A stretch of DNA of 64,000 nt from assembly GCA_028386065.3 (NCBI GenBank), contig JAKUCV010004457.1:19556-83555 (forward strand), read 5' to 3'. The number at the start of each line of letters is the position of its first letter. The stretch's first letter is position 1. Below the pieces are notes generated by a model, which saw nothing but the letters and a program-made list of their open reading frames with translations, was not told the origin of the DNA and made no database searches. Source of the DNA: Turnera subulata. Taxonomy: Eukaryota; Streptophyta; Magnoliopsida; Malpighiales; Passifloraceae. This document shows, one piece after another, positions 31,307 through 64,000 of this stretch. The translations under genes and the position numbers were made by a program.

Positions 31307-31319
31307 CTCCCCCGCAAAC

Positions 31320-35621: not shown

Positions 35622-35647
35622 TAAAGACGTTTATGGCTCCGCTACCA

Positions 35648-43061: not shown

Positions 43062-43079
43062 ATATATATATATATATAT
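43062..43079. repeat. (TA)n microsatellite
   Basis: About nine TA units. Comparable tracts at 53480-53495 and 62430-62462 occupy the same place in the other LTRs and differ in length. Confidence 0.9.
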
Positions 43080-43849
43080 TCCTCAACCATAATTTTCTAG
43101 AGAAAATAATACATATATTAAATTTCCAGAATTTATTTTCATGTTATTTATATATTTTTCCAAATAATATTAGTTTTTCTCCAAAACATAACTTAATTAT
43201 TTACCCATGTATATATATTTATAATATCCTCAAAATACCAGAATTAAATTGATCATAATTTTCTCAAAGTATATATATTTTTTTCTGAAAATTAAATTAC
43301 CAGATTAATTAATAAATACATATATATTTTTTGTTTTTTTTAATTAAACGGACTGGGCTGAACAGTGTCGGCCCAGACCCTGCACAGTGCCAAGCCCAGG
43401 CCCGTATAGAGCCCAGCAGCACAGCCAGCCCACGCCCGAGCCCAGATCAACCAAGTTTAGAAACTGCGACCCGTTTACATCAAACGGACCCTTGCAAAAC
43501 CCGGGTCTTACCTCCGGGTTGCGGCAGCGCGACGACAACGGCGAGCACGGGAGGAAGGGCGAGCACAGCAGGGCGTGCGGCGGATGAAGGCGACTCTATG
43601 GGCGGTGGAACGACGGCGCTGCATCGTCGGCGTGAGGTGGCAGGCGCGGAAAAGCTATATCCGCGGGTTCTCCGCTGGGTCAACGGCGCGTCACGGGTCG
43701 TCAGGCGGCGGAAGGCGACGGGAAGGGCGAGGTTGAGGTCGCGCCGACTCGGCGAGGACGATGGTGGCGGCGGTGCAGCGAACGGCGGCGCGGAACACCT
43801 CCTGGTGAACAGTGACCCGAGGAGATCCGGGTGGCGAACTATTCACCTG

Positions 43850-44155
43850 GTTTCTTCCTTTTTCTTCTTTTTTTTTTCTATTTTCTTCTTTTTTTCCTAT
43901 TTTTCCGATTTTTGTTTCTTCTTTTTTTTCTTTTCTCTTTATTATTTTTTTCCTTCTCTCATTTTCTTTCTTTTTTTTCTTCCCTCTGTATTTTTTTTTC
44001 TGTTTTTCTATTTTAATTTTCCTTTTCTCTTTTTTTTCTTCTCTTCTTTTTTTTTTCTCTCTTTTTTTTTCTTTCTCTTTTTTTTTTCTTTCTCTCTTTT
44101 TCTTTTTCTTCTCCTCTTCCTCTCTTCTTCCTTTCTTCTCCTGCTTCCTTCTTTT
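43850..44155. repeat. 300-bp polypyrimidine tract
   Basis: Almost pure C/T on plus (purine on the element's sense strand). It encodes a spurious poly-Phe/Ser frame. On minus a TATA-like TTTATAAAAAG lies at its upstream edge (about 44150). Shorter equivalents are at 57478-57600 and 63222-63345. Confidence 0.9.
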
Positions 44156-46764
44156 TATAAACGGGAAATTACTGTTACACTTGTGAATCGTTCAATAATG
44201 CAGCTTGTCTGCATTATGGAGCGAGACGGTCCGGACCAGAAAATAACTGATACCCTCTTAGTTATTTTCCGGTGTGATTTTTCCGAAAATTCCGGGACCC
44301 GAAAAATACCGACTTAGGCCCGAAAAATCCACGGAAAAATCACGAGCGCGGGAAAACTCTCGGTTTCGAAAAACGACTCCCAATTTACCTTGAATTAATT
44401 ACCCAAGATTAATTCAACAGTAAATCTGTAACGCCCCGATTTTTCGTTAATTGATTTTTACGGAATTTTTGAAATTTCATTTCCAATTTTACCCTTATAG
44501 AATTTCCGGGTATTTTAAGCCAAGAAAATTATTATTATTATTAATTTATTTTCCTGGAAATATTAGATTTTAAGTTGGAATTGTTTGTTGTTCGGGTTTC
44601 GTTGAAGTAAAATGTGATTCGGTGGGAAAACGAGGTTTATTGTAGTTTTATTTAAACTACGTCGTTTTGGTAAAAAAAAAAAAACAACCACGCCGTTGAC
44701 CGAGTAGGGCGAGTTGACCAAGCCAGAGACCAAAACGACGCCGTTTTGGCCTTGGCTGGCACACAAGCCCTAACCCTTCTTTCCTTCTCTTTTCTTTTAT
44801 CCTTTTTTTTTTCTTTCCCACTCTTGTCTCCCCGAGCCGCCGATGATCTTCACCCGATGTTCTCCTCCAATTGCTCTAAACAGTTAACCACCCTCAATTG
44901 CTACCACTTTCCCACATCGATTCTTCTTCTCTCCCTGACACTCCTTTCTTCTTCTCCTTCCTCCTTTCGAGCCGCCGTCGTCGAGATGCCGTCGCCCCAT
45001 CTCTTCTCTTCATGTCACCCGCCACTGCAACAAGGAAGGAGGAGGTGCTGCAGGCCGTCACCTGTGTAAGGATTTGTTCGCGTCGTGGTTGCTGCCGTTG
45101 ACGTTTTTTGTTGGGTAAGTCCCTCCTCCGTTCCCGGTTTTCTATTCCTTTCTTCGTCCTCCTTGCTTCCCGGTGATGATGTCGTCTTTTTTGGTTGTTG
45201 ATGTGTGGGTCGGCGTGGGGTTGCTGCAAGCTGTGGTGGTGTTTGGTGTGTTTGGAGTTTGGCAGTGTGGGCTTGGTGTTACTCGACCGAACCGGGGTTT
45301 GAGACAGAATCGGCGGGTGCGTCAGGGGCTCGCCGGTGCTGCCTTCTCGCGGGTTGTGGGTCATGGTCGTTCAGGCGCGGTGGTGGTTCGGTGGTTTGGT
45401 TGAGTTCGGGCTGCTGGTCATGAGTTGGAATTCTGGCAGTGGGCTGGTGTGAGGCTCGGGTTGGTTTAGTCGATTTCGAGCAGAACCCGAGACCCTGAGT
45501 GTGCGTCCGAAAGCTGCTAGTGCGGGTGTCCTTTTCCTGTGAGTGGTTCTGTCAACTTTAATTCTTTCTTTGAATTGTTTAGATTCTGCGTCGGCTCGGT
45601 TGTTTGGCAAATGCTTGTGTAGATCACTTAATCTGGTTTACAAATGGTTAGCTTTTAGAATAATACATTATCTGGAAGTTATGGGGTATATGCCGATGCA
45701 GGAATGTTAATTAGTATATCGAAACATATCCATGAGTAGAATAATGAATTGGTTTCGATAAGCTCAAGCTATTTCCTTTAAGGTTGTACTAAATTCAATT
45801 TTGTGGACGGGTTGCTGTCCACCAAATATGTTGGTTCTGAGTTGGAGTTTGACTAAGTTTTGGATTGGTCAACGGTTGATTGGTTTGGGTTGGTCAGTAG
45901 GTTAAATGGTGGAAACTACCCTATCAATGTAGTGAAAGTGATTTATGGGTTTTACAAAAGTTGAATTTAAAGTCTGGGTTCTTTTAATAATTCGTAAGAG
46001 GAATTTAAGGCTTGGTCCAAGTTTGATAATATGTATTTGTTTGAACCAGTTTCCTAAAGGGTTTGAAAATGTTTTCTTTTGGAAGGGGTTTTCCAATTTC
46101 TAATTTTTTTTATTTTATTTTATTAAACTTAAGCTTGGACTCTAGTCCTTATATACCCACGTGGGGTTAAGGATTGTTAATAGTAAACTACACCAGCTAG
46201 CGCATAGTGTCCATGCATCTCGTAGTCTCGTGGATTTGTATTGTAAATGTATTTGGGTTATAATTGTAAGAACCCAGTAACGTCGAGGTAGGAGATGGCT
46301 TTATATTTCAAGATGTTTCTAATGATCAGGTGAGGACTTATAAACCTTTGTATGCATTACTGCCTACAATGCTCGGTTAGTTGTCTTGGTTTATGAAGTG
46401 GTATTATTTGTTTGGTCTTGAATGCTGTATGCATGCTTGCCTGTTGTGCTGATGTTGCTATTTGCAAAGTGAATTATGTTGATGATACCTATGACGTGGT
46501 GTGCCTGATTATGTGACCTGTTGTCCGATGTGATGTATTGTGCCTGTCTAGTATGACTTGTTTGGTTATGATAAACACATGAGATATAGATTGTGGTTTG
46601 TGTGGTGGACTGTGGGCTGGGGGCCCGGACTTGAGAATAAGATATTAAATCCACACAACACTGTTTGATCATAATTTATGGCACAACTCTTAAAACATTA
46701 TTGAGAATAATAAAACATAATGATTCTACTGTGGGCTGTTGACCGGTTGGTTCGAGCGGGAAGT

Positions 46765-46820
46765 GTTACCCCTCGGGATTCCATGCGGTTAAGCATGGTA
46801 TATGCGGTTTAGCATATGGG
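46765..46820. repeat. Hairpins in family B LTR
   Basis: CCATGC-GGTTAA-GCATGG and ATATGC-GGTTTA-GCATAT lie side by side: same loop type, different but complementary stems. Confidence 0.8.
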
Positions 46821-46862
46821 TCTGTTATGACTGGTTCTACCTCCCTCCTTCTACCTCCCCCT

Positions 46863-46912
46863 TTCTATCTCCCTCTTTCTCTCTATCTCTCTCTCTCTCT
46901 CTCTCTTTCTAT
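46863..46912. repeat. CT-rich microsatellite
   Basis: CTCCCTCTTTCTCT units merge into (CT)n at about 46886-46905. Confidence 0.85.
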
Positions 46913-47780
46913 GGATATGTTTGGGCTTCGTGCCTGGTTTATTTGGGCTTATGCCTGGTTGTCTCATGAGACGGGACCGAGCTCGACGCACACAGTAGAG
47001 GGCCCTAATAAAATATTTAAACCTAATAACAAAGATAATAATATAAGTAATGACAAGTGATGGTTTGTAGTCGGATGATGTCTTGCTCTGTGTATTGTGG
47101 TTGTTGTTGTTTGTTGCCGGTGTACTTGTAGTTGATTTGTAATTATATATTATTGGTTTATTTGTTTGCGGTGAGACAGTGGTTGGTCTCACCCCCTCAC
47201 AGACCTTTTACAGGTTAGCTGTTCGTTGAGCAGTGGTGCATATCAGCAGGTGGCGGTGCTTTCCTCGGGTCGGATCCATAGGGTGCATTACATTCATATT
47301 TGTTTAAGTATTTGTCTTCCGCTGCATACTCGAATTGTATTACTTATTGTATGATATATTGCATAATTATATGATGATTATCTTATTTATGCCGTATCCC
47401 GGGTGGAAAGGGCAGTTCAGTCTTTTCATATGCTTTAATTGATTTAATTAGATATTTTTGGGATACGGGTGTTCAGACGATTTTTTTTTTTGTCACGGGA
47501 TTGATAAGGGCAAATTAGCCATTTTATACTTAAATTCTATTTTATATTAACAATTGGGACACAGGCGTTTCAAAATCACGGTAAAAAGACTTTTACAGTC
47601 CCGGTAAAAATCTAAAATTTTTACCCGGGCTGTTACAGTCTACCCACCTTAAAAAGAATTTCGTCCTCGAAATTCCATCTTATCCGTGGGTCCTACCACG
47701 ATAAGCTTCTGGCATACTCTGCCAGGTGTCCAAACTCAACCCGAGATACCGCTTATACCCTTAAGCGACATCTCGTCCTC

Positions 47781-47788
47781 TATAAAAA
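47781..47788 (+). promoter_or_regulatory. TATA box of A1 ORF1
   Basis: TATAAAAA lies 40 bp before the ATG at 47821. Upstream are two inverted repeats also present in A2: CTTATCCGTGG/CCACGATAAG (about 47680-47705) and CGCTT/AAGCG (about 47751-47768). Confidence 0.7.
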
Positions 47789-47820
47789 CCAAACCTCATG
47801 ACTGGCAAACTCACACAGTC

Positions 47821-48198
47821 ATGGACTCTCCAATCCGATCTCGAATGACCTCAGACTCCGAGAACAATAGCTACACCGGCGACACTGCTTTCCCGACAAG
47901 CTCCGAAGAAGAACCTCCCAAGAAGCGGTTCAAGACAAACATCATCGGCTTGAAAGAGCACATGGTCGTCTCCCCAAAACGGCGAAAGAAGCGTGCTGGC
48001 AAGAAAGCTGAAGATCGAAAGGGCAAGGCGACGGCTGAAAGCAGCACTCCGCAGCAGACTCTGACGCAGCTGAACGTCTCACTGAAGAAGATCAGCTCGG
48101 CGGTGGCGCAGATAGAACTGGCGTGCGCGGAGCTCTTCCCTCACGTGAAGAACGTACAAAAACTTGTAAAAGATCTAGAGAAGCAAGTAACTCCATAG
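47821..48198 (+). CDS. A1 ORF1: basic 125-aa protein antisense to the element
   Basis: Starts MDSPIRSRMTSDSENNSYTG. The ATG is chosen because the A2 homologue begins at the same codon after a conserved TATA box; the frame is open further upstream but that part is not conserved. Residues 1-30 are Ser/Asp/Glu-rich. Residues 33-72 hold basic clusters (PPKKRFKTN, PKRRKKRAGKKAEDRKGK) typical of nuclear localisation or nucleic-acid binding. Residues 80-125 show heptad-like hydrophobic spacing (LTQLNVSLKKISSAVAQIEL, KLVKDLEKQV), suggesting a coiled coil. It is about 87% identical to the A2 protein. AATAAA occurs 32 bp after the stop (48230). No known family was recognised. It may bind nucleic acid or partner ORF2, but this is a guess. 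Confidence 0.75.
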   Translation: MDSPIRSRMTSDSENNSYTGDTAFPTSSEEEPPKKRFKTNIIGLKEHMVVSPKRRKKRAGKKAEDRKGKATAESSTPQQTLTQLNVSLKKISSAVAQIELACAELFPHVKNVQKLVKDLEKQVTP

Positions 48199-48942
48199 AG
48201 TACTTCTTCTCCTGTTGTAAAACCTTATGAATAAATAAAATAAGTTTCCTTTTAAATCAAAATTCTTATATTACAGAGTCTCATGGTAGACAAAAAAATA
48301 AAACCTCTCAAAACAAAACAAAAATAAACAATAAGAATATAAAATCAAATATGAAGAAATTAAAAACAAAATTCGTTTAACAAAATCAAAACATAAAGAA
48401 ATTAAAACCAAAAACATGTTTTCATGATCGGTGCTCGTATCGGACGTAAACATCCTCGAACCCAAGAAACGTGACATACAGAGCTAACGGTGATGTCGGT
48501 TACCTCGTGAGAAAGATATCCGCTATCTCGCACGGTGCCGATCACGAGAGCGTCATGTGCCCCTCGAAAGAAACGATACCCACTTGTTCACAAATTCCGC
48601 ATGAGCCAAAAACGTCTGTCAAGTCTCGTATCCCTCCACGATGTCCGAACAGGTGTAAGCTTGTCGCACATGTGCTCTACTCGAGGTGTGGTCCCATTAG
48701 TCTAGCCTCAACGGTCACGAATGCATGTGATAAAAGATGCAGGAAGATATAGAAAAAACCATGAAAAGAAAGGACAACGTAGCCAGGGAGATAGAAAATC
48801 GCGGGATAGAAAAGGGCTAAAAAACACTGGCATTTAAAGCCCGAAAAACGTATAAAGTAACGAGCAATAAATGAAGCAACGGCAAAATTTTCAAAAAACA
48901 AATCTTGAAAATCGAAAACAGTAAACACGCTCTCCATAAGAG

Positions 48943-48950
48943 TATAAAAG
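48943..48950 (+). promoter_or_regulatory. TATA box of A1 ORF2 inside an inverted repeat
   Basis: TATAAAAG is framed by CGCTCT (48928-48933) and AGAGCG (48953-48958). It lies 108 bp before the ATG. In A2 the arms are CGCTCC and GGAGCG, a compensated change. Confidence 0.7.
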
Positions 48951-49057
48951 ACAGAGCGGTGAGGTGTAAATCATCAAAAGCATTTAAAAGCAAACAAAAC
49001 ATCCAGGCAACCAAAACCACAACGTTTAGCAAACAAAACACCACACGTCGAGACAAC

Positions 49058-49741
49058 ATGCCTGCTCCTTCATCCGTCTTCTTCGTCGAAGGTGCCAACC
49101 TAGGCAGAAGAAACCGACTGGCCTACAGCATGGTCAATGAGCATCCAGAAGAACTACCGAACGAGCTCGGTAGAATGCCGCGTCTGGTCTTCGTCAACGA
49201 ACTCTACTCATCCAGATTGTTCATCACTCCCATGGAAGAGATGTTCTTTCTGGAGGACCATGGCACTCTGAGGACCTCCTACTACGGCTCGGCAAACTCC
49301 ATCATGTTCTTCATCTCCGAAAGACTTCAGGAGTTCAACCTAGAGTCCACTTGACATACCCTGGAGCAAGGCACATACTACCAGCTCTCGATGACTGCCC
49401 AGAGCATGCCTAGAGTCACTCGTCTGCCCGTAACTTGGCCCAAGGCCCGACTACTGGTGTGGAATTGCAGAGGAGTCGCTAGGCGTTCCCAGGAGTTCTC
49501 GCGTACCCTGAGGGACCTCAAGAACCAATACAAACCAAACATGGTTCTTCTGACGGAGAGCCAGTGGCAACCTCAAGACGATCACGGTCTCATCCCACTC
49601 CGGTTCCCTCAAGCAAACTGGTTCGAGCTTCCAGGCCAGGACAACAGGGGCGACATGTGGTTCTCGTGGAGCGACAGCATCCAAGTCAACATCAACAATG
49701 ACCCCAACAGCTTCAGGGTCAACGTCGTTCCAAGGCGATGA
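49058..49741 (+). pseudogene. A1 ORF2: novel domain plus EEP-endonuclease fragment, one nonsense codon
   Basis: Homologous to the intact 227-aa protein at 59435. It opens MPAPSSVFFVEGANLGRRNR. Residues 1-130 form a conserved domain I do not recognise. Residues 132-210 resemble the start of the LINE endonuclease (EEP) fold: WNCRGVARR (the Asn site), LRDLKNQYKPNMV, then LLTES with the Glu at 167, and MWFSWSD where LINEs have GG.WLLW. The rest of the nuclease (the later Asp and His sites) is absent. A TGA at codon 99 (49352-49354) interrupts it. The ending is TGA at 49739. AATAAA follows at 49757. It is antisense to the element and close to the PBS. Confidence 0.85.
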
Positions 49742-50595
49742 ATGTATTTTTATTTCAATAAAATATCAATGTAATATTTCTGTTTGTAATCAAAATATTA
49801 GTATTATTAATAATATTTATATTTCCGTTATTTATGGCATCATTACCACTTATGTGAATGTTCTGCGACAGCTGGCGTCCCTTGACTGGATCCATAATGC
49901 ACTAACTAAATGATATAAAATAATAAACAAATGGAGCGAACTATGCAAATAAGGTCAACAAACACACAAGGACTGCCCAACAAGACCTAACGCCTGCTCC
50001 GCTACCAAAATGAAATGCCCCGACCCGTATTTACCGTACACAGTAAACACGTGCCGGAACTGTGACAACCCAACCAGACAAAGCCCAACATACAGTGTAT
50101 ACAACAGTAACTCGGGCTCAACAACCCAAAAATAATAACGTCAATAACAACATAATCGGCCCAATGGCCCAACAATAACTAAATAATGCACAACGGAAGA
50201 CTTAATAACTCACAAAACACTGTATGCGACACTGATGCAAACTATGGATCCGAGCCCGGTCCAAGGGATAACGCCGCAGCCTGTCTGGAATGCACCAATC
50301 CTGTACCACAAATAACTCATCCTACGGGATGAAAGCCCGCAGGTGAGGGGTGAGTCCGAAGTGCTCACCGACGAAGGATAGACAATCAATATGCAACTAT
50401 AATAACTCAAGGTCCAAAAACAGGTGAAAACCACCAAAAACATACCCAACCGAAAACTCGACCCAAAAACGGGCCAAGACCAAAAGACTAAAACAAAAAT
50501 CCAATTTTATCTTTCCGGGACCCGTCACGGACAAGCTAGAGGTCAGACCTGGTTATCAACAGATTTCGGGTACCAGACGAAATCCAGAGAACCCA

Positions 50596-50975
50596 GGGAT
50601 CGACATCCCAAAAATACGAACCCAGGGATAGACATCCCAAAAATAATCACGGGATAGACATCCCAAGCATAGACATGCTTATCATAAGTAACGCAGGTCA
50701 AGGCCACCACAAAACATTTTTAAACCATCGAGTCGTACCACTACTTACCACATGAGAATTATATTATCGTCATTCAAAATCAAATCAAAGGGATCAACAT
50801 CCCTAACCAAAATACCGGGATAGACATCCCTATCCAAAATCAAGGATCGACATCCTTATCACACTTATTATTAATTCCGTTATACTTATACCAAAAGACA
50901 CGAAAATAAATATCCAAAACCCGACACGGGGATAAACATCCCAAAAACCAATTCAAAATACTGGGATAAACATCC
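50596..50975. repeat. Hairpin array in the A1 5' LTR
   Basis: Same hairpin series as at 39318-39692, with GGGAT-CGAC-ATCCC first. The second unit here is GGGAT-AGAC-ATCCC. Confidence 0.9.
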
Positions 50976-51074
50976 CGACAATAATCACAACAAAAGCATC
51001 AACCAACAGTGCAATAAACATCAAGCACAATAACCGAGTAATACAAGCACATATTGAAGGAAATCCATCCTCAC

Positions 51075-51150
51075 CTTGGCCGATTACTCAACTCCGGAAA
51101 CAATGACCGGTCCGACACCGGCTCCTCGAGAAACTGCCCGATATCCGAAC
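51075..51150 (-). other. Conserved LTR mini-exon, A1 5' LTR
   Basis: 76 bp between TTTTGTATAG acceptor and GTGAGG donor on minus; same frame as at 39799. Confidence 0.6.
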
Positions 51151-51923
51151 CTATACAACAAAACAATATATACACATAAATGCACATAATCGGTATGCTA
51201 CGATGCCAATACTGCGAAATAATCCCATCCCGGTTCATATCCGTTTTTATCATCTTTTACCGAAAATATTATACCGTACGTATATCCGAATATAATTTCG
51301 GTACCATACTTTAATTAAAACTCTTTTAAAAATATTTTCATTAATTAATTATAATTTTTCAAAATTATAATCTCCATAATTTTTCCAGAAAAATAATAAC
51401 CTATTTATATTTTTCAGAAAATATTTATATAGTATTTATCTTTTTCTCAATATAGAAAAACATTCACAGCGGAAGACTTATAACTCACATGACAACACAT
51501 GCAAAGCCCAATGCAACTAATGGATCCGAGTCCTGTCCGAGGGTACGCATCAGCTTGCCCGGTACGTTCCTGCACTACAAACAACTCATCCTACGGGATG
51601 AAACCCCGCAGGCGAGGGGTGAGTCCGAAGCGCTCACCGACGAAAGATAAACAGAGATATATAATCAACCGTAATACTCTCGAAGTAATGCAACCATCAA
51701 ATCAGAAGAATCTATCACAAACAACGTAACAGTGGAATACAACCCAAACAACACAACAGAGGAATCCAACTAAATCATATCAAAGCCAAGACCAAAAGAA
51801 TAATTGTTATTAATTTCAAATTTTATCTTTCGGGTCCCTGTCACTAGACAAGCTAGGGTCGTACCAGGTTATCAATTAATTCCGGATGCCAGGTCAAACA
51901 ACCATACCAAATCTTACCATACC

Positions 51924-52200
51924 GGGACCACGTCCCAAATTACCAAATCACACCGGGTTCAACAACCCAAATACCATACCAGGATCAACATCCCAAAACC
52001 GGATATTCGGTATATCCGAACCACTGGGTATTCGGTATACCCCAACCACAGGCATCAAAATGCCAACCGGATATTCGGTATATCCGAACCACTGGGTATT
52101 TGGTATACCCCAACCACAGGCAACAATATGCCAACCGGATATTCGGTATATCCGAACCACTGGGTATTCGGTATACCCTAACCACAGGCAACAACATGCC
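51924..52200. repeat. Hairpin array in the A2 3' LTR
   Basis: Stems differ from A1: GGGAC-CAC-GTCCC, GGGTT-CAAC-AACCC, GGAT-CAAC-ATCC, GGATAT-TCGGT-ATATCC, GGGTAT-TCGGT-ATACCC, GGCAT-CAAA-ATGCC. The GGATAT, GGGTAT and GGCA hairpins form a ~68-bp unit repeated three times (51999-52200). Confidence 0.9.
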
Positions 52201-52996
52201 AACCAAATCAAGTAACCAAACCAAGTAACCGACCATAGCATCCCAGAATTAATCTTCAAACCATCGGCCGTACCACTACTTCCCACATATATCATCATAT
52301 CATATCAATTCCAATTTCCAATTCCAATTTTCCATTTCTCAATTATCCACAGTCAATAGTTTATTCCAATTATCCAATCACAACACTGTCTACCGATAAC
52401 AATCACAATATCCATTACAGTCAAATAATTATCCAACTTCCTACTAGCTCAAGTTATACAACAGACCATTCCATCAACAGTTTCATAACATCAATTACTC
52501 ACAGTCCAACATCAATCACAACACAGTATCCAATAACCCAATAACAGTCATACAGCGGTTCAATCAAGCAAATCAACATCATAGCAACAACAGCAACAAT
52601 AACCGTAGCAGCCAAGTAACCAACACAATTCCATATTACCAAATATCCGTCAACAATACTTGTAACACCAATTATTCACAATTAACAGTTCATCACAATA
52701 TCCACACGACCAATAGCACAGTCCAACAATAGCAACATCAATAACCATTACAGTCAAATATCTAACAATGTCCCTCTCAGTAGTTCATTCAAACAACAAA
52801 ACACACAATTATCCACATTGACCAGTTCATCATTATTCTCAATACAATATCACAAATCCAATATCACAGTCTAACATCAACAACAACGACAATATCATAG
52901 CAGTCAATCCACCAACAGTAATCATTTCAGCAGTTCAATCAAGCAACAAAGCAAACACAGTGTTACGGGCACATATGAAGGGTTATCCATCCTCAC

Positions 52997-53071
52997 CTTG
53001 GCCGATTACTCAACTCCGGAAATAATGACCGGTCCGACGCCGGCTCCTCGGGAAACTGCCCGATATCCAAC
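52997..53071 (-). other. Conserved LTR mini-exon, A2 3' LTR
   Basis: 75 bp on minus between ...GTATAG and GTGAGG; frame DIGQFPEEPASDRSLFPEL. Confidence 0.6.
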
Positions 53072-54094
53072 CTATACCACAAAACAACACATACTCACAT
53101 AAATGCACATATTCGGTACGCTATGACGCCAAACTACGAATTAATCCCATCCCGGTTCTTATCCGTTATTATTTCCATTTATCGAAAATATTTAACCATA
53201 CGTATATCCGAGTATAATTTCGGTACCATACTTTAATTAAAATTCTTTTTCAAACTATTTTCGTAAAATAACTATAATTTCCAAAATAATAAACTCCATA
53301 ACTTTTCCAGAAAAATAATAAGCTATTTATAATTTTTCAGAAAATATTTATCTAGTATTTATCTTTTTCTAAGTATACATAATAATAATATTTCCAAATG
53401 CGAAATATAATTACCCTTAATTTCCAAAATACATATTTATACACATATACCAAAATCATAATTTCTAGACGAAATATATATATATATATATATTAAATTT
53501 TCAGAAATTATTTTCAAGGTATATCTATATTTTTCCAAGTATTATTAGTTTTTCCAAAACATGACTTAATTATTTATCAATTAAATATATTTATATTTTC
53601 CTCAATATACTAGAATTAAATTGAGCATATTTTTCTCAAAGTAATTGTATAATTTTTTTCCAAAATTATATATCAGATTATGAATAATAAATATATATAT
53701 ATATATAGTTTTTTTTTGAATAACTGGACTGGGCCAAGTCCAAGCCCAGGCCCGTTACTTTTCCCAGACCCATCAATCCACAACCCAAATCCAAGCCCAA
53801 TACCAAACAAACCCAACCCATAACGCATAACCCACATGGATCCGGGTTAGCTACCCGGGTCGTCTCCTACCCGCGGGTCAACATCCACGGCTCACCTTGA
53901 GCACGGGAGGCGGCGGTGGTGCCGGCGCGGCGCGACGGAACGAGCGGCAAGGAAGGCGCGGCAAGGCTGAGGCGACGGCGGAGACGGCGCCACGGCAGTT
54001 GGGGAGGCGGTGGTGGCTGCAACAGAACGAAGGACTTGCTTCGTCGGGCGTCGCGACTTGGACGGCGACTGCAGCAGGAGCAGAGGACGGCGAG

Positions 54095-57000
54095 TGTGGA
54101 AGCCCGTACCCCAAATAAGTAAAAAATAAAATAATTAAATGAAAAAGAGTTATCAAAATACTCTTGAAACCGGGGTACAAAAACCGATGCTTCGGCATAC
54201 AAACATTTTCCATGAAAATGTATTAACAACGAGATGTCATAAAAATAAACGAGATCAACCGGCTTAACAAATAATAAGCCATCACGGCATCACGCCGACA
54301 TAATATCACAAATCACCTCCGGCTAACTGCCGATATAAAGATAAAACATTTATGACATCTCGAGTTATTTATCATGCAGCGGAAGATGAAAGTAATAATA
54401 ATGCTCAAGATAGAAAATATCATGCATATGGCCCTATGGATCCCACCAAGAGATAATGCACAACTACCTGCTGAAGTGGCTGCGTCTGATCTCCGAGTCG
54501 AAGGTGTAAGTGAGTCTGCACGCTAACTAAAGTCTGAAAAACAACGGTGGCGATTATGTGAGTCGCCTACTCAGTGAACATTAAAAGTCTAAATATACAT
54601 GAAAGTGAGGTCATGCTCGTAGGGTGAGTAGCTCACGAGCACAAGTACAGCATACAAGCAAATCAGAATCACACACCATCACAAAATTGTTTTATTGTAT
54701 TATAGCTCGTATTGTTTGAGCTCAATGCGTTATCTTATTGTTATTATTATTATTATTTTTATTATTATGGGCCCTCTACTGTGAGTCAAGTCTCGGTAGC
54801 GCATCTGATCAGATCAGGGTGTGAAACCCAAATGTCGAACCTCAGAAGGGGTAGATTCTGAGGCCAAAAACCACTGATGAATCTCAAGTGGCCGCTAGCT
54901 ACCTGAGGGTGCACTCAGACACACCTAACCGGTGCAAGTCTTCCAGGGGTGCACCTACATCCCCTGGGCATGCTAAACAGCATAATGTGACCCGAGGTAC
55001 CCACCCTCCTCGGGGCTACCAACCGACACCACAGTAGTATTTAGTATTTTATTCTTAATTAAACCTTTAAATTTCTGTTTGAAGTACATTATGTCTTTCA
55101 GGGAAGTGTGTATGTGTCCCTGTATCATCCGGGCCTTCGACCCATAACCACATATTATCACGAAAATGTATTACATGTTATATAACAGTTTTTCATGTAG
55201 AATTTAGACATGTGAGATCAACCAGGTATACAAATTCCAATCATCGCATGTAGCAAACAAGGCAAGTAAACAAACAAACCACACCAACACGCATTCACAA
55301 GACATATATAAAAAGATTTGTAATGTCACCTCAAAATGCAGATTATGACTTCTTTCCGGTCCGAGTCTACAGCTCCCGAGATATCTCCCGTACCTGAATA
55401 CCGGTATATAATATAATCACTAAACTAATTTTAGAAGTAAAACGTGCATGTATGCTAAAGGTACGCTCTTATCGAGTAACTCCCGTCCCCAACTATCAAA
55501 TTGTAGGATTTCCGGGCCTAAGTCCAAAAGGATATTTTCTTCTTCATAACTCCAACAATTAAGGATCTACGGTTCATCGGTTTAAGTAAATTAACAAATT
55601 CTCGGCCTAAAGCCCACTAAATCTTAAATCACAAATTCCGGGCCGTGGGCCCACTTCCTTAGATCCATATTTACCGATTATGAAATTGGGCTTCGAGCCC
55701 GTTCTTAATGTCTGTGAATTTAGTTATCCGTAATTAGGTCCTAAGTTCGTAACTTTAAGTCCATTTAAAACCTTCTAGCTTCAAATTGAGATTATTGGGC
55801 CTGGGCTCGGTTTTTCCTAAAACCGCCCTAAAATCGTTCCCGAGCCCAAGAGTTGATCGGCCTAAATTCTCTATGTGTCGGTAAGTCTTTCCGGCCACAC
55901 CCACTCTAACTCTCCGCTCTCGGTACCGCAATTCTCTTAATGAAAATAAATGTATATTACGGTAAATAATTCAAAATTCAAGTACACGACAAAACCGAGA
56001 CAAATCATAGATAATTACCGACTACACTCGTAAAAACGAGAACTATCGTCCGCCGGCAGAACCCGAGTCTTCGCCGAAAAAGTCCCCGAGCCCTCGCCGA
56101 AACAGTGCGCGCTCGCCGGATTCCGGCGAACCTCGCCGGAATAGTAACCCGGGGTGCCAGAAACGTCAACGAACTGCCAACGCCGAAAACCACAACAAAC
56201 TGTCAAAGCCCCAAAACCAACAACTCACATCCCATTCTTTGAATTCATATGCACAATCGACAAAACAGATTGAGAACTACAGGAGGTCACCGGAAAGACG
56301 AATCCGCAGAACCTGATGCCGGATCCGAGCCCCAAACGTCCCAATGGTGTCGACCGAACACGCACACACCCACTGCCGGATCAGCCCCACAGCAGCAACC
56401 TTCAAACCCGCACCGGCCAGCACTAAAATCTAGCCATCCTTCATCGGACCCGCCACAAAGACCTCCGGACACGAGCACCTCAAACACAACACACACCCGA
56501 CGCCTCCGTACACACAACACCCACAACACCGATCAACATCAGCACCAGAAAATAAAGGAAGCAGAAGAAAAGAGGAGCAAAGGAGACGCTTACCACGGCG
56601 GCGACGATATGGAGTTAGGCCTGCCCTCCGTACCCGTCGTCTCGCCTCACGTCCCCTGCCTCTGGGACCTTCGTCCACCACGACCCACAACCTTGAAAGG
56701 AGAGGGAGTGACAGCGACAGCGGCGGTGGCCTTGTGTCCCAACGACGGCGACACAGAAGGTAGAAGAGAGGATGTATGGCGGCGGCGGCGGTTTTTGTGA
56801 GAGGAAGGAAAAAGAAAACGGCTCCCCCCCCCCCCCCCCCCCGGTTTGTGAGTGAGAGCGATTTGAGAAAAAAAAGAAGGGAGAAGAAGATAAGAAAAAG
56901 AGAGGAAATAGTGGGGGACAACACCGTTGGGGAGTGGCGGCTGAGTGGGAAGAAAACGGCAGGAAGATAAGAATGAAGGAGAAGAAAGAAAGAAGAAAGT

Positions 57001-57317
57001 GGAAAAGAGGGAAAAAAAAGAAATTGGGCTAGGGTTGGCCGCCCTAGTGGACGACCTGTCGTCCGCTTAGGCGCGGTCAACCCTGCCTGGTCAACTTTTT
57101 TTTTTTTTTCAAGACCTCAAAACGACGTAGTTTTAACTAAAACTACGGTAGACGTCGTGTTTCGTCCCGAAACGCGTTTTAGGTCCGACGAAACTCGAAA
57201 GCAGTGTATTACCACTCATAATTAATGAATCCAATGGAAAATAATTTAATTTAATTTCCATTACCGAAATTCGGAATTTTCTTTATTAATCCAAAAACGG
57301 AAAACCGGGGCGTTACA
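54095..57317 (-). mobile_element. Nested solo LTR of family B, TSD GCGAG
   Basis: 3223 bp, plus-strand ends TGTGGAAGCCCG...GGGGCGTTACA; read on minus it starts TGTAACGCCCCG like 44427-47572. TSD GCGAG is at 54090-54094 and 57318-57322. The intact sequence without the insert is seen in the other A2 LTR at 63061-63080. Contains a hairpin CCTCAGAA-GGGGTAGA-TTCTGAGG (about 54840) and GT donors on minus (about 56595 and 55330). Confidence 0.93.
56824..56842. repeat. 19-base C homopolymer
   Basis: An uninterrupted C run inside the GC-rich zone of the family B LTR. Its length may not be accurate in the assembly. Confidence 0.9.
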
Positions 57318-58092
57318 GCGAGAAGGCGCGGCTCTCTACTCGTCGTCATCGTGTGGAGGTGCTGAACGGGGCGGCATGGTGGCGGCAATGAGGTGGTCGG
57401 CGCGGCAGGGGAAGAAGGAAAAGAGATGCAGGCAGGGGGTGACGGTGGTGCTCCTCCTCCTCCTCCCGATTTCATCTTTTTTTCTTTTCTTCTCTCTTTT
57501 TTTCTTCATTTTCTCCTCTCCCTCTCTCTCTTTTTTTTTTCTTTCTTTCTTTTTTTTTTCTCTCTTTTCTTTTTCCTCTCTTCCTCTCCTGGTTCCTTCC
57601 CACCGGTTTTAAGCTTTTAATCTTAATCTTTTTTTTTTTACTATTAGACTTGTGAGCAATAATGCAAATCGTCCGTATTACGGGCGAGTCCGATCCGGAC
57701 CAAAAAATAACAGATACCTCCTTAGTTATTTTCCGGTGTGATTTTCCGAGAAATTCCGAAACCCAAAAAATACCAACTTAGTTCCGAGAAATCCACGGAA
57801 AAATCACGAGCGCGGAAAAATTCTCGGTTTTGAAAAACGACTCCCGATTTACCTTGAATTAATTACCCAAGATTAATTCAACAGTAAATCACGGTAAAAC
57901 GACTTTTACAGTCCCGGTAAAAATCCAAATTTTACCCGGGCTGTTACATTCTACCCCCCTTAAAAAGAATTTCGTCCCCGAAGTTCCGTCTTATCCGTGG
58001 GTCCTACCACGATAAGATTCTGGCACGTACTACCAGGTGTCCAACCTCAACATGATTTGTCGCTTATACCCTTAAGCGACATCTCATCCGCT

Positions 58093-58100
58093 TATAAATA
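58093..58100 (+). promoter_or_regulatory. TATA box of A2 ORF1 with upstream hairpins
   Basis: TATAAATA lies 42 bp before the ATG at 58135. GTCGCTT/AAGCGAC (58059-58080) forms a hairpin just upstream. A second inverted repeat, CTTATCCGTGG/CCACGATAAG, is near 57990-58015. Confidence 0.7.
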
Positions 58101-58134
58101 CCAAACCTCATAGCTGAGACACTCACTCTCAGCC

Positions 58135-58512
58135 ATGGACTCTCCACTTCGTTCTCGAACGACCTCAGACTCCGAGAACAACAGCTACATCGGCGGCACA
58201 GCTTTCCCGACAAGCTCCGATGAAGACCCTCCAAAGAAACGGTTCAAGACCAACATCATCGGTCTGGAGGAGCACATGGTGGTCTCCCCAAAGCGACGGA
58301 AGAAACGTGCCGGCAAGAAAGCTGAGGACAAGAAGGGCAAGGCGGTAGCTGAAAGCAGCACACCGCAGCAGAAACTGACGCAACTGAACTTCTCGCTGAA
58401 GAAGATCAGCTCGGCGGTGGCACAAATTGAACTGGCGTGCATGGAGCTCTTCCCTCACCTGAGGAACGTCCAGCAACTTGTAAAGGACTTAGAGAAGCAA
58501 GTAACTCAGTAG
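58135..58512 (+). CDS. A2 ORF1: intact basic 125-aa protein
   Basis: Homologue of A1 ORF1 with the same length, start and stop region; 16 of 125 residues differ and there are no indels. Acidic/Ser N-terminus (TSSDEDPP), basic clusters PPKKRFKTN and PKRRKKRAGKKAEDKKGK, and a C-terminal amphipathic region (LKKISSAVAQIEL, LRNVQQLVKDLEKQ) are all kept. AATAAA is 36 bp after the stop (58548). Its own TATA box and poly(A) signal make an independent transcription unit likely, running against the retrotransposon RNA. No match to a known family was recognised from sequence alone. The predicted role, a nuclear nucleic-acid-binding or scaffolding protein, is inference. Confidence 0.8.
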   Translation: MDSPLRSRTTSDSENNSYIGGTAFPTSSDEDPPKKRFKTNIIGLEEHMVVSPKRRKKRAGKKAEDKKGKAVAESSTPQQKLTQLNFSLKKISSAVAQIELACMELFPHLRNVQQLVKDLEKQVTQ

Positions 58513-59320
58513 AGTACTTCTTCTCCGATGTAAAACTGTTATGTATTAATAAAATAAGTTTCCTTTTGCAATCAAATCTCTTAGATTATGAATTCTCTTG
58601 TTAAGATATGAAAACTCATATTTAACTGAAAAACAAAATATTTAAAACATAACAAAACCGTCATGAATAAATTTGAACATAATGATGTTAAAAACAGGAC
58701 CGATAAAACGAATTATAACCAACATAAAGAAATTAAAAACGAAACAAAACTCGTTTAACAAAATCAAAACAAAAAAGAAATTAAAACAAGATATGTTTTC
58801 ATGCTCGGCGCTCTAGTTTGATCGTGTCCATTCTCAATCCTGAGAAACGTGACACGTACAGTTAACGGTGACGTCGGTTAACCTCGTGAAGAAGATATCC
58901 GTTAACTGGCAAGGCGCTGTTCACGGGAACGTCCTGTGTCCCTCGAAAGAAACGATACCCACTTGTTCACAATTTCTGCATAAGCCAAAACGTCTGTCAA
59001 GGCTCGTATCTCTCCACGATGTCCGAACAGCTGTGAGCTTGTCGCACATGCGCTCTACTAGAGATACGGCCCCATTCGTCTAGCCTCAACGGTCACGAAT
59101 GCATGTGATGAAAGATGCAAGAAAATGTAGTAAGACCACGAAAAGAAAGGACAAGGTAGCCAGAGCGGAAGAAAATCAAGAGATGGAAAAAGGCTGAAAA
59201 AAAATCTCTGGCATGGGCCCGAAAAACACGTAAAGTAACAAAGCATTAAATAAAGCAACGGTAAAATTCAAAGAGCAAGATCTTGAAAATCAAAAACGGT
59301 AATCACGCTCCCCGTAAGTG

Positions 59321-59328
59321 TATAAAAG
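59321..59328 (+). promoter_or_regulatory. TATA box of A2 ORF2 inside an inverted repeat
   Basis: TATAAAAG lies 114 bp before the ATG and is framed by CGCTCC (59306-59311) and GGAGCG (59333-59338). Compare CGCTCT/AGAGCG in A1. Confidence 0.7.
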
Positions 59329-59434
59329 AAACGGAGCGGTGATGTGTAGATCATCAAAGCATTTTAAAGCAAACAAAACTCTCAGAAAACAAAACCACAA
59401 CGTTCAAAACAAAACCCCATACGTCCAAATCAAG

Positions 59435-60118
59435 ATGCCTGCTCCTTCATCAGTCTTCTTCGTCGAAGGTGCCAACCTAGGCAGAAGGAATCGTCTGGCA
59501 TACAGCATGGTCAACGAGCGTGCTGAAGAGCTACCAAACGAGCTCGACAGGATGCCACGTCTAGTCTTCGTCGACGAGCTCTGCTCATCGCGGTTCTTCG
59601 TCACTCCAATGGAAGAGGTGTTCTTCCTAGAGGACCATGGAACACTGAGGACATCCTACTACGGATCGGCAAACTCCGTGATGTTCTTCATCTCCGAGAG
59701 GCTTCAAGAGTTCAATCTGGAGTCCACTTGTCAGACTGTGAAGCAAGGTGCTTCCTACCAGCTCTCAATGACAGCTCAGAGCATGCCCAGAATGACTAGG
59801 CTACCTCCAACCTGGCCAAAGGCACGACTGCTGGTGTGGAACTGCAGAGGAGTGGCAAGGCGTGCCCAGGAGTTCTCGCGAATCCTGAGGGATCTGAAGA
59901 ACCAGTACAAGCCGAACATGGTTCTTCTGACGGTGACGCAGTGGCAACCACGAGACGATCACGGTCTCATCCCACTCCGATTCCCTCAAGCTAACCGGTT
60001 TGAGATTCCTGGCCAGCGCGACAGAGGCGGCATGTGGTTCTCGTGGAGCGACAGGGTCACGGTAAACATCAACAGTGACGCAAACAGTTTCCGTGTCAAC
60101 GTCGTTCCAAACCGTTAA
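59435..60118 (+). CDS. A2 ORF2: intact 227-aa novel domain fused to EEP-endonuclease fragment
   Basis: Starts MPAPSSVFFVEGANLGRRNR. The frame is open upstream to 59318, but this ATG is shared by all three copies. Residues 1-130 are a conserved domain I do not recognise (LVFVDELCSSRFFVTPMEE, YYGSANSVMFFISERLQEF). Residues 132-210 match the start of plant LINE endonucleases: LLVWNCRGVARR, LRDLKNQYKPNMVLL, GGMWFSWSD. The fold is cut off before the later catalytic Asp/His residues, and position 167, Glu in the other two copies and in LINE enzymes, is Val here (LLTVT). It is therefore unlikely to be an active nuclease and may bind nucleic acid instead. It is antisense to the element, next to the PBS, 922 bp after ORF1. 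Confidence 0.85.
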   Translation: MPAPSSVFFVEGANLGRRNRLAYSMVNERAEELPNELDRMPRLVFVDELCSSRFFVTPMEEVFFLEDHGTLRTSYYGSANSVMFFISERLQEFNLESTCQTVKQGASYQLSMTAQSMPRMTRLPPTWPKARLLVWNCRGVARRAQEFSRILRDLKNQYKPNMVLLTVTQWQPRDDHGLIPLRFPQANRFEIPGQRDRGGMWFSWSDRVTVNINSDANSFRVNVVPNR

Positions 60119-60884
60119 TTGTATTTTCGTTATTTAAAATATCAAAAATCAGTGTATTATTTCCCTTTTTATAAAATATAAAATATCACTGTAATATTTC
60201 TGTTTGTAATATCAAAATATTAATATTTCCCTTTGTACTCAAAATATCAGTATTTGCAGTATTAATAATATTTGTTTTTTCGCATATTATGGCATCATTT
60301 ACCTCATATGTGTATGTTTCGCGACAGCTGGCGTCCCTTGACTGGATCCATAATGCACTAACTAAATGATGTAAAATAGTAAACAACTGGAGCGAACGAT
60401 GGAAACAAGACAACAACACACCTAGACTGCCCGACAAGACCTAACGCCCGCTCTGCTACCAAAATGAGACGCCCCGACCCGTATTTACCGTACACAGTAA
60501 ACACGTGCCGGAACTGTGACAACCCAACCCATCAAACCCAACATACAGTGTATAAAACATAACCCCTAGCTCCACAGCCCAAAAATATAAATAGCAATAT
60601 GGCCCTACGGCCCGACATCAATAACAACAGTAATAACTCAACTGGCCCAATGGCCCAGCTATAGTAAAAACATGCACAGCAGAAGACTTATAACTCACAT
60701 GACAACACATGCAAAGCCCAATGCAACTAATGGATCCGAGTCCTGTCCGAGGGTACGCATCAGCTTGCCCGGTACGTTCCTGCACTACAAACAACTCATC
60801 CTACGGGATGAAACCCCGCAGGCGAGGGGTGAGTCCGAAGCGCTCACCGACGAAAGATAAACAGAGATATATAATCAACCACCA

Positions 60885-61160
60885 CGTCCCAAATTACCAA
60901 ATCACACCGGGTTCAACAACCCAAATACCATACCGGGATCAACATCCCAAAACCAGATATTCGGTATATCCGAACCACTGGGTATTCGGTATACCCCAAC
61001 CACAGGCATCAACATGCCAACCGGATATTCGGTATATCCGAACCACTGGGTATTTGGTATACCCCAACCACAGGCAACAACATGCCAACCGGATATTCAG
61101 TATATCCGAACCACTGGGTATTCGGTATACCCTAACCACAGGCAACAACATGCCAACCAA
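60885..61160. repeat. Hairpin array in the A2 5' LTR
   Basis: Same series as 51924-52200, with the 68-bp GGATAT/GGGTAT/GGCA unit in three copies; the first stem has one change (AGATAT). Confidence 0.9.
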
Positions 61161-61951
61161 ATCAAGTAACCAAACCAAGTAACCGACCGTAGCATCCCAG
61201 AATTATTCTTCAAACCATCGGGTCGTACCACTACTTCCCACATATATCATCATATCATATCAATTCCAATTTCCAATTCCAATTTTCCATTTCTCAATTA
61301 TCCACAGTCAATAGTTTATTCCAATTATCCAATCACAACACTGTCTACCGACAACAATCACAATATCCATTACAGTCAAATAATTATCCAACTTCCTACT
61401 AGCTCAAGTTATACAACAGACCATTCCATCAACAGTTTCATAACATCAACTACTCACAGTCCAACATCAATCACAACACAGTATCCAATAACCCAATAAC
61501 AGTCATACAGCGGTTCAATCAAGCAAATCAACATCATAGCAACAACAACAACAATAACCGTAGCAGCCAAGTAACCAACACAATTCCATATTACCAAATA
61601 TCCGTCAACAATACTTGTAACACCAATTATTCACAATTAACAGTTCATCACAATATCCACACGACCAATAGCACAGTCCAACAACAGCAACATCAATAAC
61701 CATTACAGTCAAATATCTAATAATGTCCCTCTCAGTAGTTCATTCAAACAACAAAACACACAATTATCCACATTGACCAGTTCATCATTATTCTCAACAC
61801 AATATCACAAATCCAATATCACAGTCTAACATCAACAACAACGACAATATCATAGCAGTCAATCCACCAACAGTAATCATTTCAGCAGTTCAATCAAGCA
61901 ACAAAGCAAACACAGTGTTACGGGCACATATCAAGGGTTATCCATCCTCAC

Positions 61952-62026
61952 CTTGGCCGATTACTCAACTCCGGAAAAAATGATCGGTCCGACGCCGGCT
62001 CCTCGGGAAACTGCCCGATATCCAAC
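61952..62026 (-). other. Conserved LTR mini-exon, A2 5' LTR
   Basis: 75 bp between the same acceptor and GTGAGG donor on minus. Confidence 0.6.
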
Positions 62027-62426
62027 CTATACCACAAAACAACACATACTCACATAAATGCACATATTCGGTACGCTATGATGCCAAACTACGAATTAAT
62101 CCCATCCCGGTTCTTATCCGTTATTATTTCCATTTATCGAAAATATTTAACTATACGTATATCCGAGTATAATTTCGGTACCATACTTTAATTAAAATTC
62201 TTTTTCAAACTATTTTCGTAAAATAACTATAATTTCCAAAATAATAAACTCCATAACTTTTCCAGAAAAATAATAAGCTATTTATAATTTTTCAGAAAAT
62301 ATTTATCTAGTATTTATCTTTTTCTAAGTATACATAATAATAATATTTCCCAATGCGAAATATAATTACCCTTAATTTCCAAAATACATATTTATACACA
62401 TATACCAAAATCATAATTTCTAGACG

Positions 62427-62466
<40 letters not shown>

Positions 62467-63676
62467 TTTTCAGAAATTATTTTTAAGGTATATCTATATT
62501 TTTCCAAGTATTATTAGTTTTTCCAAAACATGACTTAATTATTTATCAATTAAATATATTTATATTTTCCTCAATATACTAGAATTAAATTGAGCATATT
62601 TTTCTCAAAGTAATTGTATAATTTTTTTTCCAAAATTATATATCAGATTATGAATAATAAATATATATATATATAAATATAGTTTTTTTTTAAATAACTG
62701 GACTGGACAAGTCCAAGCCCAGGCCCGTTACTTTTCCTAGACCCATCAATCCACAACCCAAATCCAAGCCCAATACCAAACAAACCCAACCCATAACGCA
62801 TAACTCACATGGATCCGGGTTAGCTACCCGGGTCGTCTCCTACCCGCGGGTCAACATCCACGGCTCACCTTGAGCAAACGGGAGGCGGCGGTGGTGCCGG
62901 CGCGGCGCGACAGAACGAGCGGCAAGGAAGGCGCGGCAAGGCTGAGGCGACGGCGGAGACGGCGCCACGGCAGTTGGGGAGGCGGTGGTGGCTGCAACAG
63001 AACGAAGGACTTGCTTCGTCGGGCGTCGCGACTTGGACGGCGACTGCAGCAGGAGCAGAGGACGGCGAGGAGGCGCGGCTCTCTGCTCGTCGTCGTCGTG
63101 TGGAGGGGCTGAACGGGACGGCATGGTGGCGGCAATGAGGTGGTCGGCGCGGCAGGGGAAGAAGGAAAAGAGATGCAGGCAGGGGGTGACGGTGGTGCTC
63201 CTCCTCCTCCACCCGATTTCATCTTTTTTTTCTTTTCTTCTCTCTTTTTTTCTTCATTTTCTACTCTCCCTCTCTCTTTTTTTTTTTTTTCTTTCTTCTT
63301 CTTTTTTTTTCTCTCTTTTCTTTTTCCTCTCTTCCTCTCCTGATTCCTTCCCACCGGTTTTAAGCTTTTAATCTTAATCTTCTTTTTTTTTACTACTAGA
63401 CTTGTGAGCAATAATGCAAATCGTCCGTATTACGGGCGAGTCCGATCCGGACCAGAAAATAACAGATACCTCCTTAATTATTTTCCGGTGTGATTTTCCG
63501 AGAAATTCCGAAACCTGAAAAATACCAACTTAGTTCCGAGAAATCCACGGAAAAATCACGACCGCGGGAAAATTCTCGGTTTCGAAAAACGACTCCCGAT
63601 TTACCTTGAATTAATTACCCAAGATTAATTCAACAGTAAATCACGGTAAAACGACTTTTACAGTCCCGGTAAAAAT

Positions 63677-64000
63677 CCAAGCCCAACCCACATAGCCCAA
63701 ACCTAACCCATAACCCATAACCCAAACTAAAGCCCAACAAACTAAACACCTAAACCTATAACCCATTCCCCACAAAACCCAAGCCCACTACCAAATATTC
63801 AACCCAAACCCAACAACCCACAAACTCCAACCCAACAACTAAACCCTACCCGACCCATCCAAATAATTCGGGTCAAGACCATCATAACGGGTCGTCAACC
63901 CACGCTTACCACAGGGGCTGTTTCGGCGGTGAGGGCGGCAACGAGCAGGTGGCGGCGTGAGGCGCGAGCAAGGCGACGCGTGAGGAGGTACGGGGGCGGG
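63677..64000 (-). mobile_element. Fragment of another family A-like LTR
   Basis: Rich in CCCAA-type motifs (AAGCCCAACCC), then GGGTCGTCAACCC and a minus-strand donor (CTGTGGTAAGCGTG, about 63910) followed by a GC-rich zone. This is the same module order as 62700-62900 in the A2 LTR, but the sequence differs. It joins the A2 LTR at a shared AATCCAAGCCCA-like stretch and runs off the window. Confidence 0.6.

Follow-up and report, generated by a model that had tools for sequence, protein, structure and literature searches.

Antisense genes of a non-autonomous LTR retrotransposon family in Turnera subulata, one of which also occurs in Copia-like elements and mariner-type DNA transposons

Two antisense genes in family A

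We analyzed a 64,000-nucleotide stretch of the Turnera subulata genome (GenBank assembly GCA_028386065.3, contig JAKUCV010004457.1, positions 19,556 to 83,555 of the forward strand), here called the window; all positions are those of the window, and loci or contigs with L or C numbers lie elsewhere in the same genome. Within a nested region of long terminal repeat (LTR) retrotransposons, the window holds two copies, A1 and A2, of a minus-strand LTR element that we call family A. Its order is a primer-binding site (PBS)-like sequence, a 2.5-kb interior, and a polypurine tract (PPT), with LTRs on both sides, and the interior carries two open reading frames (ORFs) antisense to the element. An earlier note on this DNA had described an LTR family that lacks gag-pol and has two antisense genes between PPT and PBS. 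The interior frames and a Pfam scan bear this description out, whereas the pair did not prove to be a feature of family A alone: one member, ORF2, turns up unaccompanied by ORF1 in mariner-type DNA transposons and in Copia-like LTR elements.

In A2, whose interior spans 57949 to 60464 with both LTRs outside that span, ORF1 (125 amino acids [aa]) lies at 58135 to 58512 and ORF2 (227 aa) at 59435 to 60118, both on the plus strand. Their plus-strand counterparts in the divergent copy A1 (38735 to 51454) lie at 47821 to 48198 and 49058 to 49741. The claim that both copies hold the pair stood for ORF1, which is open in each; ORF2 is open in A2 but interrupted in A1 by a TGA at codon 99. As the note had also claimed, a TATA box precedes each gene at a fixed distance: those of A2 at 58093 to 58099 and 59321 to 59327 (plus strand; A1 counterparts at 47781 and 48943) lie 42 nt (40 nt in A1) before the ATG of ORF1 and 114 nt (115 nt in A1) before that of ORF2. 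An AATAAA follows ORF1 in both copies, at 58548 to 58553 (plus strand) in A2 and at 48230 in A1, beginning 36 and 32 nt past the end of the ORF, respectively.

When the A2 interior was shuffled 1,000 times by dinucleotide, ATG-initiated ORFs reached at most 198 aa; 75 shuffles had one of at least 125 aa and none had one of at least 227 aa. The length of ORF2 is significant on its own. That of ORF1 is weak evidence because 75 of the 1,000 shuffles reach it, and the case for ORF1 is carried by codon-level selection. Between A1 and A2, the ratio of nonsynonymous to synonymous divergence (dN/dS, NG86 method) was 0.130 for ORF1 (dN = 0.069, dS = 0.534) and 0.126 for ORF2 (dN = 0.079, dS = 0.630). 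Third positions accounted for 33 of the 52 differences in ORF1 and 71 of the 106 in ORF2, and none of 500 neutral simulation runs per ORF reached a dN/dS as low as observed. GC content is 63 to 68% at third positions versus 38% between the two ORFs. Decay of CpG sites was rejected as the source of the third-position excess, since only 5 of the 33 third-position differences in ORF1 and 12 of the 71 in ORF2 touch a CpG.

These values also bear on whether the protein or the antisense transcript matters. Convergent transcription could yield double-stranded or antisense RNA that regulates the element, an idea that Vicient and Casacuberta brought up in 2020 for antisense ORFs of other elements (PMC7264820). 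Such a role would explain neither the third-position excess nor the dN/dS near 0.1, both of which need a protein, and we regard it as very unlikely. A conserved RNA hairpin between the ORFs was considered and rejected: the z score was −2.76 in the element-sense RNA of A2 and +1.36 in A1, where the hairpin is not kept. Rfam gave nothing at the gathering threshold across the window and nothing at E ≤ 1 in 57900 to 60500.

Family A has paired LTRs, a PBS, a PPT, and a 5-bp target duplication, as expected of an LTR retrotransposon. On the minus strand of A2, the PPT lies at 57950 to 57965 and the PBS-like site, TGGTAGCAGAGC, at 60450 to 60461; the latter differs at one base from what we take to be the usual plant initiator-Met primer-binding site. 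The 5′ LTR of A2 (60465 to 63680, minus strand) is rearranged past 63680 at its outer end. The 3′ LTR, on the same strand, consists of a first part at 51455 to 54094 and a last part at 57315 to 57948, broken by an insert (54095 to 57314). The LTR parts of A2 are 97.8% identical over 2,190 bp and 96.0% over 619 bp. In A1, the truncated 5′ LTR (50011 to 51454, minus strand) is 97.6% identical over 1,444 bp to the outer part of the 3′ LTR (38735 to 40178, minus strand), the remainder of which is split by inserts to about 47640. Rearrangement has obscured the target duplications of A1 and A2; those known, ATAAG and ACTAT, belong to two whole copies elsewhere in the genome (L065 and L066), which have LTRs of ~3.6 to 3.7 kb (pairs 95.0% and 97.1 to 97.9% identical) and in which both ORFs are open. 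A1 and A2 share one orientation and are joined at 51454/51455 via truncated LTRs, as after a deletion between neighboring elements. A related LTR-like stretch in the opposite orientation (40204 to 43031) seems to be a solo LTR that lies within the left A1 LTR.

No Pfam match to gag, reverse transcriptase, or integrase was found at E ≤ 0.1 in the 45 other frames of at least 50 aa in the A1 and A2 interiors, and the interior frames gave no chromodomain at this threshold. Judged by these frames, family A is non-autonomous, with no recognizable gag-pol. The best match among the 45 was to DUF3593, in one frame (E = 0.0012). Large retrotransposon derivatives likewise have long LTRs, high copy number, and no gag-pol; their interiors are described as noncoding, whereas that of family A codes. 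A pol-end-like relic of A2, NFGDEILFKGGRM*, lies on the minus strand at 57953 to 57982, overlapping the PPT and the LTR start, and its frame is kept in A1 at 47642 to 47671. Because this relic resembles what we take to be the C terminus of chromovirus pol, family A probably descends from a Ty3/gypsy chromovirus. A link to the Tat lineage, which the earlier note had named as the main group with extra ORFs, found no such backing: Pfam gave no match to Transposase_28 (TRP28; PF04195), and the relic has the look of a chromovirus. Two noncoding blocks, 58921 to 59140 and 60301 to 60464, are less diverse than the LTRs (π of.112 and.066 versus.19 to.26) and may act as promoter and packaging regions. 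Two inverted repeats, CTTATC...GATAAG and TCGCTTA...TAAGCGA, precede the TATA box of ORF1 (57976 to 58092) and by eye are largely kept in A1.

Selection on both genes across the genome

The genome searched for ORF copies comprises 518.7 Mb in 7,125 contigs. ORF2 gave 7,903 first-look candidates and ORF1 gave 3,875; these are not copy numbers, and the best 150 scored for each represent the most similar end. Stop codons (counted here and below without frameshifts) were present in 10 of the best 150 ORF2 matches, which apart from the window's own copies are 94 to 97% identical, and in 11 of the best 150 for ORF1. Many further open copies thus exist, as would be expected if the earlier note had rightly taken the ORFs to be genes. 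The order PPT-ORF1-ORF2-PBS was found in 17 of 20 ORF2-picked copies drawn from the 150 scored. The partner ORF was missing from the stretch examined at 3 of the 20 ORF2-picked and 3 of 29 ORF1-picked loci.

Ranking by a protein favors copies with few amino acid changes, and each ORF was therefore measured in copies picked by the other. Same-protein picks gave dN/dS values that are biased low (0.06 for ORF1 and 0.04 for ORF2), and we rely on the cross-picked sets and on the comparison of A1 with A2. ORF1 in 17 ORF2-picked copies had a dN/dS of 0.132 (136 pairs; stops in 2 of 17 copies). For ORF2 in 26 ORF1-picked copies, the value was 0.113 (273 of 325 pairs, median 193 codons), or 0.071 without the outlier L047; the other 52 pairs were dropped because they shared fewer than 80 codons or were saturated. 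Across copies, then, the ratio is about 0.1 and not near 1, in agreement with what the note had anticipated. For 19 aligned interiors, the first, second, and third codon positions had diversities of.082,.056, and.246 in ORF1 and.032,.018, and.222 in ORF2, compared with.19 to.26 in three stretches of the LTRs and.066 beside the PBS. Third positions diverge at the LTR rate while amino acid positions are held back. Hypervariability of the synonymous sites (dS of 0.4 to 0.6 versus the adjoining noncoding block) was considered and rejected: third-position diversity equals that of the LTRs, and it is the block that is less variable than the LTRs. By these comparisons, ORF1 and ORF2 are protein genes under long-lasting purifying selection.

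Constraint of this kind could also have been inherited from a host gene, were the ORFs captured passengers derived from whole genes or pieces of them. Pack-TYPE transposons are known to capture coding DNA (PMC8903248), and gene transduction by LTR elements has been described (PMC7264820). Passengers would not be expected, however, to occur in at least 150 copies each within an element layout common to the copies, nor to keep codon positions 1 and 2 while the LTRs and position 3 diverge alike. No single-copy host source was found among the best 150 matches per ORF. We hold a passenger origin of this kind to be improbable.

ORF2 in mariner-type and Copia-like elements

Three of the 20 ORF2-picked copies lie not in retrotransposons but in mariner-type elements, where ORF2 occurs without ORF1. 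Mariner-type ORF2 is 94 to 96% identical to that of family A and is full length and open in three elements (the L059 unit, L060, and C3860). The L059 unit, ~2.97 kb long, is common to L059, L061, and L062 at 99.5 to 99.8% identity, with unlike sequence directly outside; TA and the ends CTCCCTCTGT... and ...ACGGAGGGAG form its edges. CTCCCTC-type ends and a TA duplication are present in L059, L060, and C3860 alike, and we take the end sequences of the units to be of the Stowaway type. A second, inner end of this type lies near 7824 of L059 (7818 to 8117) and in C3860, as if a smaller element had fused to one side, and the core of C3860 is inverted relative to its ends. Mariner elements insert at TA targets (PMC8903248). 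Readings of the mariner loci as a retroelement variant, a Mutator-like element, or a Helitron were discarded, the end sequences being decisive.

L060 spans 7.07 kb between matching ends (826 to 7893), and its ORFs match DUF7769 above the gathering score and HTH_Tnp_Tc3_2 and DDE_3 below it. No transposase-like ORF was found among the listed ORFs of the L059 unit and C3860, of which only ORF3 was domain-scanned. One L060 ORF (6392 to 6778), for which Pfam gave nothing at E ≤ 1, reads like the beginning of an imidazoleglycerol-phosphate dehydratase, and this element may also carry pieces of host genes. In all three elements, a further frame, ORF3 (95 aa, coiled-coil-like by eye), is open beside ORF2 and points away from it; ORF3 has no similarity to ORF1.

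The three mariner ORF2s differ pairwise by a dS of 0.39 to 0.59 and a dN of 0.012 to 0.017. Between the same elements, ORF3 differs by a dS of 0.085 to 0.199, well below that of ORF2, a pattern consistent with exchange of ORF2. A tree of ORF2 groups one mariner copy with a family A copy (support 98/89); a single clade of the three mariner ORF2s was not rejected (approximately unbiased [AU] test, p = 0.153), and repeated capture is accordingly not demonstrated. Evidence on the direction of transfer is divided. L059 holds a piece of the family A leader (up to base 60443) and a stretch like the LTR end, which points from family A to mariner. A ~60-bp element upstream of ORF2 (59241 to 59305, plus strand, in A2), present in family A and mariner-type copies, could point the other way: of 17 family A copies, 14 have one match and 3 have two, but each mariner element (n = 3) has two to three, some of them adjoining ORF3.

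Mariner elements that had swallowed a piece of family A, in Pack-Mariner events (PMC8903248), would account for the leader and LTR-end-like pieces in L059 and for the mariner ORF2 that groups with a family A copy; ORF2 would then be idle in the DNA transposons and have a real role in LTR elements only. The moderate constraint on ORF3 is in line with this explanation. An idle gene is harder to reconcile with three full-length ORF2s whose dN is this low at such dS, and with an open ORF3 beside each, although the dN is biased by the picking of these copies for protein similarity. We see this as a serious possibility, albeit one that we lean against.

A third ORF2 copy in the window, ORF2b (16506 to 17188, minus strand), has one frameshift and 71% aa identity to ORF2 and lies antisense within a Copia-like element (14236 to 20366). 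This element has ~0.2-kb LTRs on the plus strand, the 5′ LTR at 14236 to 14442 preceded by CTTTT and the 3′ LTR at 20183 to 20366 followed by CTTTT, and has a weak match (E = 0.015) to the RVT_2 portion of a different Copia pol. A genome search with ORF2b gave, among the best 150 places, 91 to 96% identity apart from its own, with stops in 36 of 150 (counted over the first ~180 residues only). Copia-like flanks were found at all five further ORF2b loci compared, the longest pieces being 82 to 84% identical over 1.9 to 3.4 kb, and a TATA-like site lies upstream of ORF2b in six of six copies (the window's own and these five). Because no sense-strand frame of more than 117 aa occurs within 1.5 kb of ORF2b in the five further loci, this Copia-like family may also be non-autonomous. 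Between ORF2b and family A ORF2, silent sites are saturated and dN is 0.17 to 0.19; selection values for ORF2b rest on same-protein picks and are biased low. Elsewhere in the window lies a Copia element (31064 to 35892) whose minus strand encodes gag and pol in long ORFs and whose ~245-bp LTRs (31064 to 31306 and 35648 to 35892) are 98.4% identical. In the Copia-like family and the mariner-type elements alike, ORF2 is accompanied by its upstream region. The presence of ORF2 in three kinds of element suggests a tool common to different transposons.

Candidate functions and known systems

ORF2 matches no Pfam family past the cutoff. PF03372 (Exo_endo_phos) was matched at E < 1 by 18 of 23 ORF2 proteins (best, 0.0064), with no match in A2; in L060, residues 134 to 211 align with positions 2 to 84 of the 225-position profile at 16.2 bits, compared with a gathering score of 24.5. 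The second half of ORF2 thus faintly resembles the first third of the nuclease domain, and a full PF03372 domain above the gathering score was not found. Of the 43 covered copies, all have Asn136 and 40 have Glu167 (Val in A2). The WNCRG stretch of ORF2 is presumably typical of plant long interspersed nuclear element (LINE) endonucleases. Cutting by ORF2 is unlikely, because the protein lacks the later portion of this domain. ORF1 has a basic middle and, in an AlphaFold model, a fairly confident C-terminal helix (residues 77 to 123). A search of 5.8 billion proteins gave 87 candidates for ORF2 and 13 for ORF1, none of them a homolog at E ≤ 0.01; plants are suspected to be scarce in this set, so that absence elsewhere is not implied. 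A sequence search of the PDB for relatives of either protein gave nothing convincing.

Because ORF2 is open in DNA transposons as well, reverse transcription or packaging is an unpromising place to look for its function, and its occurrence in both mariner-type and Copia-like elements argues against a role bound to reverse transcription. Transcriptional regulation or evasion of silencing would fit best. We tentatively propose, at a probability of about 0.43, that ORF2 works in trans in the nucleus, as a regulator or as an antagonist of silencing, to the benefit of elements of different classes. Family A would borrow gag-pol in trans, and ORF2, together with a small helical partner, would act in the nucleus, in trans, on the elements that carry it, either by regulation or by antagonizing silencing. 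The partial nuclease-like half would bind nucleic acid rather than cut it. A function of this sort would pay for RNA-copied and cut-and-paste elements alike and could persist even where an element encodes none of its own mobility proteins.

Alternatively, the two proteins may assist family A retrotransposition itself, in RNA packaging, nuclear import of cDNA, or target choice, the last two being among the roles that the earlier note had suggested. This would suit a non-autonomous LTR element whose ORF1 protein is basic and has a helix at its C terminus, and the antisense protein of the Grande retrotransposon is nuclear (PMC11963269). Such assistance is unlikely for a gene that is open in three mariner-type DNA transposons, which move without an RNA intermediate; ORF1, seen in family A only, could still serve there.

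Several observations weigh against a trans-acting nuclear role for ORF2. The weakest point is that the mariner ORF2s were picked by protein similarity, so that a low dN among them cannot count independently toward a use in those elements. ORF3 is less constrained, with a dN/dS of 0.31 to 0.44 in three pairs. Three of the five further ORF2b copies have stops, and two are open over all 227 residues. These stops and the weaker constraint on ORF3 slightly lowered our confidence both in this role and in the broader helper-family idea discussed below. Eight of the 26 ORF2s in ORF1-picked copies also have stops, as decaying insertions predict and far from universal intactness. The AlphaFold model of ORF2 is poor (mean predicted local distance difference test [pLDDT] score, 35.8) and was not used; the strand-helix-strand order at residues 131 to 166 of this low-pLDDT model agrees with the nuclease idea and adds nothing beyond that. 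VANC, the anti-silencing protein of VANDAL elements, has an array of target motifs; nothing comparable was seen here, the upstream element occurring once in 14 of 17 family A copies, and no general motif search was made. No autonomous partner of family A turned up, with no search aimed at chromovirus partners. Finally, unless a freely diffusing protein acts on the family that encodes it, selection can hardly maintain it in a non-autonomous element.

Family A resembles Grande (gene23), RIRE2, Retand, and PvRetro13 in having an antisense gene near the 3′ LTR, kept across copies and with no assigned function (PMC7264820, PMC11963269). Being antisense and kept across copies, its ORFs are of the kind termed antisense ORFs (aORFs). 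The antisense gene of Grande has its own promoter and encodes a nuclear protein (PMC7264820, PMC11963269). Grande-type aORFs sit between pol and the 3′ LTR, whereas family A has no recognizable pol, and 97% of Retand clusters are described as having a TRP28 domain, of which family A gave no match. The 2020 review presents aORFs as without similarity to other transposable elements (PMC7264820); ORF2 of family A, in contrast, is common to other element classes. In bdelloid rotifers, the same types of accessory ORF3 occur in LTR and Penelope-like elements (Rodriguez et al. 2017; PMC5408684). That sharing is among retroelements only and involves recognizable enzymes, whereas ORF2 is shared between retrotransposons and a DNA transposon and is a new protein. 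VANC of Arabidopsis VANDAL is a transposon-encoded accessory protein that counters silencing of its own family and is a functional analogy only (PMC10398659); its targets are tandem short motifs in noncoding DNA, and no such arrays were seen in family A, where only matches to the upstream element were counted. The ORF2-bearing mariner elements share Stowaway-type ends, a TA duplication, and foreign coding DNA with Pack-Mariners (PMC8903248). They differ in that the cargo is a gene of other transposons, open in three elements, one of which has transposase-domain ORFs. Additional ORFs in general are also treated in PMC12786077.

Antisense ORFs in plant LTR elements, the sharing of ORFs across rotifer retroelement classes, and Pack-Mariners were thus already known; the sharing of ORF2 across LTR families and a DNA transposon is unusual and would be new. 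Our literature search, covering titles and abstract openings and few subscription papers, found neither an accessory gene common to LTR retrotransposons and a DNA transposon nor the ORF1-ORF2 pair. Going further, ORF2 might found a family of transposon helper proteins: one anti-silencing or regulatory factor recruited separately by Gypsy-derived, Copia-like, and mariner elements of a single genome, accompanied in two of the three by a small helical protein (ORF1 or ORF3), and passing between Class I and Class II as a module with its promoter. We consider this extension rather doubtful.

For the question of the role and origin of the antisense accessory ORFs of plant retrotransposons, a gene common to different element classes, together with its upstream region, narrows the candidate functions to those that such elements have in common, and this cross-class sharing makes the question addressable with one protein in one genome. 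Genes of this kind may also pass for host genes in annotation.

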